Positions 5,768 to 37,150 of a stretch of 37,434 nt of DNA are shown in pieces. The first letter of the stretch is position 1. Each line of letters starts with the position of its first letter. The position numbers and the translations under genes are program-made. Under the pieces are notes generated by a model. That model was not told the DNA's origin. It did not search any database and saw only the letters and a program-made list of their open reading frames with translations. Source of the stretch: Candidatus Cacconaster equi (lineage in GTDB: Bacteria; Bacteroidota; Bacteroidia; Bacteroidales; UBA932); assembly GCA_018065895.1 (NCBI GenBank), contig JAGHSK010000011.1:1-37434 (forward strand), given 5' to 3'.

Positions 5768-6007
5768 ATGGAAAAAAGTGAACTTATTGAAAAAATGGTA
5801 TCAATTCTGGCCGACGATTTCGAGATCGATCCTTCTGCCATCACCCCGGATGCTCCTATCAAGGAGACTCTCCATCTTGACAGCCTCAGCCTCGTTGACA
5901 TGGTAGGATTGGTTGAAGACGAGTTTGAAGTTGAAATCAAGGCTGCAGACCTGCCTAAGATCCGCACATTCGCCGACCTCTACGACTATGTCCATTCAAG
6001 AATGTAA
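5768..6007 (+). CDS. Acyl carrier protein
   Basis: Small acidic protein of 79 residues with the phosphopantetheine attachment motif LDSLS; the modified residue is Ser39. Helix II-like acidic residues follow (VDMVGLVEDEFEVEI). It carries the growing acyl chain between the enzymes of this operon. Its last 20 bases overlap the start of the next gene, which suggests coupled translation. It is probably a dedicated carrier and not the housekeeping AcpP, because it is embedded with pathway enzymes and lacks the standard neighbours fabD and fabF. Confidence 0.93.
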   Translation: MEKSELIEKMVSILADDFEIDPSAITPDAPIKETLHLDSLSLVDMVGLVEDEFEVEIKAADLPKIRTFADLYDYVHSRM

Positions 6008-6425
6008 AGTCGTCACGGACATTGCAAGTCTGATACCTCAGAGGTCTCCGATTGCAATGGTTGACAGGTTCGAATACATCGACCAGCGCAGCTGCCGATC
6101 CTCTTTGAATATACTTCCCGGCAACATGTTTCTTGATGATGCCGGGAATATGATTCAGGAGGGTTATCTGGAGCATATCGCCCAGAGCGCCGCCGCCTAC
6201 ATAGGCTACTGCCGTCTTCTTGAGGGCAAAACAGTGGCTCTCGGATATATCGGGGACATCCGCAAATGCAAGTTCTCGGGAAATGTCGCAAAAAAAGGCG
6301 GCATCTTGAACACTGACGTTAAAATTGTCTCCGTAGTGGGAGGTATCACAATGATTTCCGCAACCACCTCGGATGAAAACGGAGAAATATTGAATTGTTC
6401 AATGAAACTGGCTGTTGACGAATGA
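5988..6425 (+). CDS. Hotdog-fold dehydratase-like protein, ApeP-like (keeps Glu, lacks His)
   Basis: FabZ/FabA-like hotdog protein of 145 residues. The start at 5988 is chosen because the protein then begins shortly before the family's opening block (LIPQRSPIAMVDR, like FabZ LLPHRFPFLLVDR). The central helix reads EGYLEHIAQSAAAY, so the catalytic acid is Glu62, aligned with FabZ LEAMAQ. The FabZ GHFPG segment is missing; the aligned region reads MFLDDAGNMIQ, with Phe where the catalytic His should be. FLDxxGxxxxxxxxEyxAQ is, from memory, the pattern of ApeP-type proteins in aryl polyene clusters. It overlaps the ACP gene by 20 bases and the next hotdog gene by 4, so the three are likely made together. 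On its own it may not dehydrate 3-hydroxyacyl-ACP. Confidence 0.8.
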   Translation: MSIQECKVVTDIASLIPQRSPIAMVDRFEYIDQRSCRSSLNILPGNMFLDDAGNMIQEGYLEHIAQSAAAYIGYCRLLEGKTVALGYIGDIRKCKFSGNVAKKGGILNTDVKIVSVVGGITMISATTSDENGEILNCSMKLAVDE

Positions 6426-35003: not shown

Positions 35004-35319
35004 GCCCAGGTGGTGGAATAGGTAGACACGCGGGACTTAAAAAGTTCTTTTTTTAGAGCACATTTGAGTGCACTCTCTGAAAAGAGGGATGTAGAATGTC
35101 GTAAATTCAAGGAAACCTTAACGGGTAATGCCGATGGCAATCTTGAGCCAAGCCTCTAACAAGAGGAAGGTGCAGAGACTAGACACGACACACCTAAAGA
35201 CAATGTCCAAGGTGAAGGAATAGTCCGGACCACAAACGAAAGGTAGCGAAAGCTATAGTGGCAAGAAAATCCCGTGGGCAGCAATGTCCGTACGGGTTCG
35301 ATTCCCGTCCCGGGCACCA
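35004..35319 (+). tRNA. tRNA-Leu(UAA) interrupted by a group I intron
   Basis: Exon 1 is 35004-35038 and exon 2 is 35266-35319, giving an 89-nt class II tRNA with encoded CCA. The acceptor stem is GCCCAGG with CCCGGGC (A5 faces C68 as one mismatch) and the discriminator is A. The D arm is GTG/CAC with GG in the loop. The anticodon stem CGGGA/TCCCG closes only when the exons are joined, giving the loop CTTAAAA with anticodon UAA. The long variable arm is GGGC/GTCC, and the T arm is ACGGG-TTCGATT-CCCGT. The break lies between U34 and A35, the same site as in cyanobacterial and plastid tRNA-Leu introns. Standard tRNA scans may miss it. The tRNA is followed by a strong terminator. Confidence 0.93.
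35039..35265 (+). ncRNA. Group I self-splicing intron in tRNA-Leu(UAA)
   Basis: A 227-nt intron with no ORF, ending in the expected terminal G. By-eye elements: P1 (exon GGACUU with AAGUUC); P2 AGAGCAC with GTGCACTCT; a small CTCT-GAAA-AGAG hairpin; P3 GTCGT with ACGAC; P4-P5 region around AAGGAAACCTT and GGCAATCTTGAGCC; P6 CCTCT-AACA-AGAGG; P7 GACTA with TAGTC; P8 CACCT with AGGTG; and a P9 region with TAGC-GAAA-GCTA inside CCAC/GTGG. GGCAATCTTGAGCCAAGCC and GTGCAGAGACTAGACAC resemble the P and R elements of the cyanobacterial tRNA-Leu intron, so an IC3-like type is likely. It should splice by the two-step guanosine pathway. Confidence 0.9.
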
Positions 35320-35557: not shown

Positions 35558-36115
35558 TTATCCCTTTCTGGCTCTTAAGTATAAGTACAACGTTGCGCGA
35601 CTGATTCCGGTGGCTTCAAGGATATCCTTAATCGGGATGTCTTTGGCATCGTACATCGCAAGAGCCTGCTGTATCTTCTTCTCATCAGTCCTGGGTCTGC
35701 CACCCAAGCGGCCTCTGGCACGGGCTGCAGCAAGGCCGTCCCTTGTCCGTTCGTGGGTCAGGTCCCGCTCGAACTGGCTGATTCCGGCACTGATGGTGAA
35801 CAGCAGCTTGCCGTGTGGAGTAGTGGTGTCGAGCCAGGATTCCTTCAGTGACTTGACGTCAGCTCCGCAGCCGTTGATTCTTTCTACCAGTTCGAACAGG
35901 TCCTTAGTGGATCGGCTCAGCCTTGTCAGTTCGCAGACGATGACCGTGTCTCCGTCGCGCAGTGCTTCAAGCATCCTGTTCAGTTCCGGACGCTCTTTCT
36001 TGGTGCCGGTTATCTTCTCCTGGTATATCCTCTCACAACCGTTCTTTGTCAGAGCATCCAGCTGCCAGTCCAGGTTCTGGTCAGCGGTGGAACAACGTGC
36101 ATATCCTATCTGCAT
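35558..36115 (-). CDS. Serine recombinase (resolvase/invertase family)
   Basis: Small serine recombinase of 185 residues. The N-terminal catalytic domain opens GYARCSTADQNL, so the nucleophile is Ser9 (with Cys in place of the usual Val before it). It continues with ITGTKKERPELNRML, VCELTRLSRSTKDL and the FERDLTHERTRDGLAAARARGRLGGRP linker (shown here as FERDLTHERT and RGRLGGRP). A C-terminal helix-turn-helix follows (about 160-183, KDILEATGISRATLYLYLR). Enzymes of this size resolve or invert DNA between short sites in accessory elements. It lies 12 bases after the Fic/Doc gene and is probably co-transcribed with it. Confidence 0.94.
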   Translation of the reverse strand: MQIGYARCSTADQNLDWQLDALTKNGCERIYQEKITGTKKERPELNRMLEALRDGDTVIVCELTRLSRSTKDLFELVERINGCGADVKSLKESWLDTTTPHGKLLFTISAGISQFERDLTHERTRDGLAAARARGRLGGRPRTDEKKIQQALAMYDAKDIPIKDILEATGISRATLYLYLRARKG

Positions 36116-36127
36116 AGTTTGCGGTGT

Positions 36128-37150
36128 TTATTTGTTACTTGTGTTTATGAGGTTGACGACTACCTTGACCATCATGTCCATCTCCTCGGTTTTGCTTTCG
36201 GCAATCATCAGTGTGAGCGCCACAAGTGCATTGTCAGCAATTCTCTTGCTTCCGTCGGCGGCATAGAGAATGCCGTTGTTCTCCATGAACCACAAGAACA
36301 GCGTTGCCGCAATCCTCTTGTTACCGTCAGTAAATGAATGGTTCTTTGTGACGAGATACAGCAGCGCTGCGGCCTTCTCCTCCACTGAAGGGTAGAGGTC
36401 CTTCCCGTCCCAAGTCTGGTAAATCTGTCCGATGGAGCTGCGGAAGGACTCATCCTTCTCATTTGCAAACAGAGAGCTTTCGCCGAATTTCTCCTTGAGT
36501 CCATCTATTACCTCCATCGCATTCTCATATGTAGCGTGGAACGTCTCGCCTCCGGAAGTGTTGCGAATCTCCAAACTTTGGTAGTCATAGCCGTCGAGGG
36601 TATCAAGAGCGTAGGTGTAGTCCCTCACGACATCGAATATCGAGCGGACCTGATCTTCGGCACCGGTCTCAAGGCGCAGCATCGTCCGGCCTATGGTATC
36701 AACCAGAGCCTTGAGCTCGTCGTAACGTTCCTGAATCAGGTTGTTTTTGACAGCGTAGCCCTTGATGAGGTATTCCTTCAGGACGGTGTTGGCCCAACGT
36801 CTGAAGACAACGCCGTTTTTACTCTTCACCCTGAATCCGACGGATGTAATCATCTCAAGACTGTAGTATTCCGGATATTGTGTCTGCTCAAACCCTTCAC
36901 GGCGTCCGTATTTCTTGGGTGTCGCAAATTTTGCGACCACCAATTCTCCGGCAAGTTCTTCCTTTAGAGCATTGTTGATGTGCTTGCCGATTGTTTTGAC
37001 ATCCCTACCGAACAACAGAGCCATCTGCTGGCGTGTCAGCCATACAGTATCGTTCTCAAGTTTTACTTCCAGATTAGTCTGACCGTCCGGAGTCTGATAC
37101 AGGACGATTCTTCCGATTCCTTCTTCTTCAATGATGATGTCTCTTCCCAT
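36128..37150 (-). CDS. RhuM family protein fused to a Fic/Doc domain
   Basis: Protein of 340 residues. The N-terminal part (about 15-185) is RhuM-like: IVLYQTPDGQTNLEVKLENDTVWLTRQQMALLFGRD (seen as the DGQTNLEVKL and VWLTRQQMALLFGRD blocks), KTIGKHINNAL, YYSLEMITSVGFRVKS and FRRWANTVLKEYLIKGYAV. The C-terminal part (about 200-335) is a Fic/Doc fold with NHSFTDGNKR; His271, Phe273, Asp275, Asn277, Lys278 and Arg279 match the Doc-type HxFx(D/N)xNKR motif and not the AMP-transferase HPFxxGNGR. Doc proteins phosphorylate EF-Tu; activity here is not proven. No antitoxin gene (Phd-like) is adjacent. It leads a two-gene unit with the recombinase and has its own promoter. Confidence 0.9.
   Translation of the reverse strand: MGRDIIIEEEGIGRIVLYQTPDGQTNLEVKLENDTVWLTRQQMALLFGRDVKTIGKHINNALKEELAGELVVAKFATPKKYGRREGFEQTQYPEYYSLEMITSVGFRVKSKNGVVFRRWANTVLKEYLIKGYAVKNNLIQERYDELKALVDTIGRTMLRLETGAEDQVRSIFDVVRDYTYALDTLDGYDYQSLEIRNTSGGETFHATYENAMEVIDGLKEKFGESSLFANEKDESFRSSIGQIYQTWDGKDLYPSVEEKAAALLYLVTKNHSFTDGNKRIAATLFLWFMENNGILYAADGSKRIADNALVALTLMIAESKTEEMDMMVKVVVNLINTSNK

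Follow-up and report, generated by a model that had tools for sequence, protein, structure and literature searches.

The group I intron of tRNA-Leu(UAA) provides a classic argument for intron antiquity. In cyanobacteria this intron has a short core, a 5′ U, a terminal G and a P1 helix formed by CUU and GAG, and we know of no cyanobacterial tRNA-Leu(UAA) intron with an endonuclease. An endonuclease-encoding intron in tRNA-fMet was reportedly described by Bonocora and Shub in 2001. According to the accessible text of PMC4033280, bacterial tRNA group I introns are found mostly in cyanobacteria, with a few in alpha- and betaproteobacteria. Putative tRNA-Leu-TAA group I introns have been noted in Beggiatoaceae (PMC4853749), so that the other bacterial cases named in the original prediction, in tRNA-Arg, tRNA-Ile and tRNA-fMet, form an incomplete list. 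The Beggiatoaceae introns interrupt the same tRNA as the intron described here, likewise outside cyanobacteria, but in another bacterial group and, in the part of that report available, with class and mobility not determined. For phages, a review (PMC3984707, in part) states that all introns observed by 2014 were in protein genes despite the many phage tRNA genes, and the accessible parts of two further papers (PMC7886860 and PMC6125680) do not mention tRNA introns in phages or Bacteroidota. Our search of the open-licence literature found no report of a tRNA-Leu(UAA) intron in Bacteroidota or of tRNA-Leu introns in phages; subscription journals and preprints lay outside the search and priority is unproven.

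The stretch of DNA analysed here (the window) is 37,434 nt of a contig from Candidatus Cacconaster equi, a member of the Bacteroidales. A tRNA-Leu(UAA) gene at 35004–35319 on the forward strand is split by a 227-nt group I intron at 35039–35265. The features of the gene and of the intron fold are as follows.

35004..35038, forward strand: 5′ exon of tRNA-Leu(UAA), ending in C32 U33 U34 (ARAGORN, joined exons)
35039..35265, forward strand: group I intron, 227 nt, final G (Rfam RF00028; ARAGORN junctions; empty sites in relatives)
35266..35319, forward strand: 3′ exon of tRNA-Leu(UAA), beginning with A35 A36, CCA encoded (ARAGORN, joined exons)
35036..35068, forward strand: P1, CUU 35036–35038 with GAG 35066–35068, 27-nt loop (sequence; pairing drawn by eye)
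35069..35093, forward strand: P2 hairpin with GAAA loop (changes on both sides in 7/10 pairs)
35097..35190, forward strand: P3, 35097–35102 with 35185–35190, enclosing P4, P5, P6 and P6a (100% paired)
35177..35225, forward strand: P7, the guanosine-binding helix, 35177–35181 with 35221–35225, in a pseudoknot with P3 (invariant, 36/36)
35191..35214, forward strand: P8 hairpin (window fold and 36-intron alignment)
35228..35262, forward strand: P9 and P9a (GCGAAAGC hairpin; window fold and 36-intron alignment)

The Rfam covariance model RF00028 (Intron_gpI) matches positions 35036–35248 (+) with 64.9 bits against a gathering threshold of 50 (E 2e-14). The match spans the whole model, positions 1–253, and is the sole one in the draft assembly of 1,646,521 bases (61 contigs, 84% complete). 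ARAGORN detected no tRNA in the raw window and none in the unspliced stretch; with 35039–35265 removed, it called an 89-base tRNA-Leu(taa) composed of 35004–35038 and 35266–35319, all of whose arms are intact. The junctions on the joined exons are 35038/35039 and 35265/35266, which places the insertion point between U34 and A35; a U precedes the 5′ splice site and the intron ends in a G. The original prediction, that a group I intron of 227 nt with a final G lies between U34 and A35 and that the anticodon stem closes only once it is removed, was thus exact to the base. Just downstream of the tRNA gene, at 35558–36115 (−) and 36128–37150 (−), the list of open reading frames contains serine-recombinase-like and RhuM/Fic-like proteins, named by eye; this adjoining piece could possibly be mobile.

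The window sequence forms P2, P3, P4, P5, P6, P6a, P7, P8, P9 and P9a, with GAAA loops on P2 and P9a, which includes each of the pairings (P3, P6, P7, P8 and P9) and the GAAA tetraloops proposed earlier. Of 36 related introns aligned for comparison (without intron L280 of G599), 34 are bacterial and two come from viral contigs; across this alignment 98.9% of 2006 cells are paired and 27 of the 56 pairs are changed on both sides, including three of six pairs in P3 and all five in P6a. None of 500 shuffles reached any of five measures. Shifting the partner by 1–3 columns reduced pairing to 32–45%; the structure was obtained with RNAalifold from 12 related sequences, 11 of them among the 36, and because it derives from some of the same sequences it is not independent of this test and is favoured over slid versions. 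P7 was added by hand and never varies, so that it is backed by conservation and not by covariation.

Comparison with the cyanobacterial tRNA-Leu(UAA) introns indicates the same tRNA, the same U34/A35 site, a short core, a 5′ U, a terminal G and a CUU/GAG P1. A difference lies in P7, which is GACUA/UAGUC here and GACUC/GAGUC in the Anabaena sequence. Judged by its sequence, the window intron is a well-founded group I intron of a type already known, and its lineage is probably a mobile variant; the host group, Bacteroidota, is one for which no earlier report was found in the open-licence literature.

Among 40 genomes of the genus, 25 contain an uninterrupted tRNA-Leu(UAA) gene by a strict pattern and ten contain the full intron core, with a partial match of 34.7 bits in an additional genome, G588. 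No genome contains both; four contain neither, many of the genomes being incomplete. With 10 and 25 genomes out of 40, zero overlap would arise by chance with a probability of 3.5e-6. Since intact and filled alleles are mutually exclusive in the genus, splicing is probably needed for UUA: the intron-bearing gene is apparently the cell's only UUA-reading tRNA, and the likely essentiality foreseen for a sole UAA-decoding tRNA holds. If instead the intron were dead, its gene a pseudogene and UUA read by something else, a second copy could be missing from the incomplete assembly; but the core helices and tRNA arms are all intact and none of the ten full carriers has a pattern-matching intact copy, and we regard this reading as very unlikely.

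The same insertion, for which the original prediction proposed a search in other Bacteroidota, recurs in the family. The interrupted-gene pattern occurs in 65 of 398 family genomes and in 4 of 25 genera, the reversed pattern in none. This pattern demands ATAGTCC, so that cyanobacterial introns of the GAGTCC type fall outside it, and GAAAATCC limits matches to anticodons ending in AA. With the Rfam model and strict filters, 14 of 199 family genomes were positive, 12 of them in the tRNA-Leu(UAA) gene; two matches below the cut-off (L013 and L014, 27.7 and 24.1 bits with RF00028) were discarded, as tRNA exons were not seen beside them. In six family genomes (G674, G768, G687, G107, G177 and G677) the matches have a clearly different 3′ half; this tRNA is perhaps host to two types of intron. 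In a sample of the phylum the pattern was found in 1 of 395 genomes, solely that of the window, and in a sample of the order the core model was found in 3 of 393. One of these three, L016:1501–1629, belongs to another Bacteroidales draft genome, where the group I core lies in a phage-like stretch and, by eye, within a tRNA-Ile(UAU).

Scanning named genomes gave at least 119 stretches; 111 loci (112 places) could be refolded into tRNA-Leu(UAA) and eight could not. Among the 224 refolded places overall the window appears twice, and L008 and L089 represent the same record. In refolding, the shortest tRNA-Leu candidate was chosen; 73 of the 224 places had more candidates, and at L161 a tRNA-Phe candidate was shorter. 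Titles among the matches listed include Bacteroidales, Saprospiraceae, Chitinophagia, Cytophagales, many Alphaproteobacteria, Burkholderiales, Acidobacteria, Clostridia and Planctomycetia. We note that plasmid pAKIT_VAL, from the symbiont Candidatus Vallotia, carries one tRNA-Leu(UAA) intron (L108), and that one acidobacterial contig (L113) contains two interrupted tRNA-Leu(UAA) genes, with introns of 239 and 235 nt.

Within the genus the intron is scattered. A pyrH search matched 39 genomes, and the tree was built from the 30 loci returned (10 filled, 18 empty and 2 unknown; G588 was excluded from the state counts). On this one-gene tree the ten carriers require ten changes of state, the maximum for ten carriers, and at least eight of these are forced by starred branches. 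Shuffled labels require 8.5 changes on average, which indicates that the carriers are not clustered. Four filled/empty pairs of related genomes have flanks that can be aligned: G606/G103 (98.4% over 1616 bp; the exons do not differ, 38/38 and 50/50), G586/G080 (90.6% over 1030 bp, the 705-nt intron of G586 containing an HNH gene), G599/G114 (87.8% over 1519 bp) and G598/G593 (87.2% over 1019 bp). By pyrH identity the window genome is closest to G587 and G188, neither of which has the intron. Ungapped comparison of the window exons with their intact tRNAs gives 34/38 and 46/50 for G587 and 36/38 and 48/50 for G188, and a block about 60–430 nt upstream of the window gene is 71% identical to the block upstream of the intact G587 gene. 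A binning or assembly artefact, such as the fusion of a Bacteroidales contig with a tRNA gene from a phage, might be suspected in a draft of this completeness and contig number, but it would not account for these matches or for the recurrence of the pattern across the family, and we consider it exceedingly unlikely.

The scatter can also be read as old vertical inheritance, in which an ancestor of the family (or of the Bacteroidales) had the intron and many precise deletions removed it, with the HNH genes being lost too. Counts of changes on the pyrH tree do not distinguish gain from loss, as repeated loss from an ancestral carrier gives the same scatter; nevertheless, carriers scattered at the maximum possible number of changes argue against this history. 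The endonuclease genes bear on it further. The same-genus carriers G598 (722 nt) and G586 have an HNH endonuclease gene in the intron, as do the 725-nt introns L009 and L010 of another genus. Close relatives of the window intron carry at the same site an endonuclease gene of the kind expected of a homing intron. The window intron has no endonuclease gene in its 227 nt, and no member of the phrog_10822 family was found elsewhere in its own 84%-complete draft genome. In G598, G586, L009, L010 and the viral contig L151, the gene begins in the P1 loop. A PHROGs search with two of the proteins assigned both to phrog_10822 (E 5e-43 for L009 and 4e-46 for L151), and of three proteins searched against the Pfam HNH model L009 was above the cut-off and L151 and L095 were just below it. 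The HNH protein had a single weak match among solved structures (E 0.33).

The dN/dS ratio is 0.16 for L009/L010 and 0.09 for G598/L134, where dS (2.9) is close to saturation; silent sites are saturated in the remaining eight of ten pairs, with pN of 0.12–0.39 against pS of 0.80–1.02. By these sequence comparisons the HNH genes of the relatives are intact and, where estimable, under purifying selection. Such genes, intact in several species, would be hard to keep without homing, which speaks against vertical descent, while the identities among the seven HNH proteins of the Bacteroidales clade (68–94% mutually and about 50% to L151) are as expected after one old acquisition. The HNH protein of L053 is 66% identical to that of L151 though their cores fall apart in the tree, a sign that introns may exchange endonuclease genes. 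In six introns (L009, L010, L031, L106, L121 and L134) the HNH frame extends as far as the ribozyme core (LSALSE..RKFKE..LEPSL), some of which is therefore also coding, with RNA and protein sharing sequence.

Trees were calculated from 126–127 columns of the core and contain many open forks. The larger, of 177 rows, was derived from 231 core hits by removing 26 loci and one L151 hit that were truncated or weak and merging identical cores. In it the window intron belongs to a clade of 33 rows (97, starred), mainly Bacteroidales but including the long viral rows L177 and L180, which together with the viral L151, L192 and L223 forms a set of 37 rows (95, starred). In a reduced tree without 12 long-branch rows (L177, L180 and L195 among them), for which the bootstrap had not settled, the window clade has 31 rows (98/96, starred) and adjoins L151 and L192 (91/87). 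In both trees the closest neighbours of the Bacteroidales clade are introns from viral contigs. A second Bacteroidales group (L017, L053 and L058) lies among viral and Clostridia rows, and a third (L032, L078, L085, L095 and L105, with the viral L145) has a very long stem and an unsure placement. A single clade of all Bacteroidales rows is rejected (p-AU 0.0001), with values of 0.046 for uniting the first and second groups and 0.013 for the first and third; these tests used 113 rows, with every third remaining bacterial row, and the groups were named after the tree was seen. With the Bacteroidales introns in three groups, vertical inheritance is in our view possible but rather doubtful.

The original prediction had offered two origins, transfer from a cyanobacterial or plastid source and a wider ancient distribution. 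Transfer would explain the same gene, the same position and the similar P1 and core words, and the one Anabaena intron included is placed in the reduced tree beside the Bacteroidales and L151 group (90/69, unstarred). However, the branch of this single row is long (1.28), the sequence most similar to it is a Rhodoferax intron at 71% identity, and the window clade has viral introns closer to it; this weak test gives no support to direct descent from a cyanobacterial or plastid intron, which appears improbable. As to the second origin, the wider distribution stands, whereas a simply ancient one fits poorly with the maximal scatter, the intact HNH genes in relatives and the viral nearest introns.

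The same pattern is present in 110 viral contigs, of which 100 refold as tRNA-Leu(UAA), several of the cores being identical copies. Introns of at least 450 nt are found in 40 of these 100 and in 11 of 124 bacterial places among the matches listed, and open frames of at least 130 aa occur within 30 of the long viral introns (19 distinct) and within ten of the bacterial ones, again among the matches listed. Agrobacterium phage Atu_ph07 (NC_042013) has an interrupted gene identical to that of L195, whose intron is 278 nt long, in a stretch where its record annotates no tRNA, and an uncultured 735-kb phage record (LR756501) also contains an interrupted gene, with a 205-nt intron. For an 11-kb piece of L151, PHROGs named only a sigma factor among ten ORFs, so that the phage nature of this contig rests on IMG/VR. 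The L151 core is 81% identical to the nearest Bacteroidales core; at this identity, and about 50% for the HNH protein, no recent exchange between phage and host has been caught. In blastn against phages and plasmids the window intron matched core fragments only, the best rows covering 37% and 47% of the query; the similarity to HNH group I introns of Twort-like Staphylococcus and other phages is in the core and covers 37%. The known phage HNH introns are in protein genes, as far as the available part of PMC3984707 states, whereas the viral introns described here are in tRNA genes. A related HNH gene is present in Dulem virus 42, in an annotated neighbourhood without a tRNA. Contig L192, with 16 detected tRNAs, has two cores (178–302 and 5913–6048) besides that in tRNA-Leu(UAA), by eye in tRNA-Asn(GUU) and a CAU tRNA, and the group I core at L223:4074–4199 looks the same as the first of these.

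In our view, with a probability of roughly three in four, the window intron, itself without an endonuclease, belongs to a lineage of mobile group I introns that spread by homing and was probably ferried by phages. In the transcript, the intron would fold into P1–P9 and bind guanosine in P7; judging from the fold, cleavage at the 5′ site would follow the U of the G.U pair, and ligation of the exons at the terminal G would give a UUA-reading tRNA. The lineage would gain and lose this one site repeatedly. HNH-bearing members may cut the intronless tRNA-Leu(UAA) gene at the conserved junction ACTT^AAAATCC, with repair then copying the intron into the site, and phage tRNA genes with related introns and HNH genes would be the likeliest vehicles between species. 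The lineage resembles the tRNA-fMet intron attributed to Bonocora and Shub (2001) in being, by our reading, a group I intron with an endonuclease aimed at the anticodon region of a tRNA, but differs in the tRNA and in its HNH protein, which is of the phage family phrog_10822. It also differs from the cyanobacterial tRNA-Leu(UAA) intron, described as old in the accessible text of PMC4033280, in being patchy within a genus and in having relatives with HNH genes. Only tentatively would we go further and suppose that, across all bacteria, group I introns of tRNA-Leu(UAA) are chiefly stored in and carried by the tRNA genes of phages, that homing HNH enzymes targeting the conserved anticodon loop shuttle introns between phage and host tRNA genes, and that the "ancient" intron of cyanobacteria and chloroplasts is a branch of this pool that has lost its mobility.

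As the empty ARAGORN result for the raw window illustrates, a tRNA that is probably essential to the cell is overlooked by tRNA finders that lack a group I model. The same site has been invaded in Bacteroidota and in other phyla, and the presence of homing-type genes, filled/empty pairs and viral carriers makes the origin and spread of this intron directly testable.
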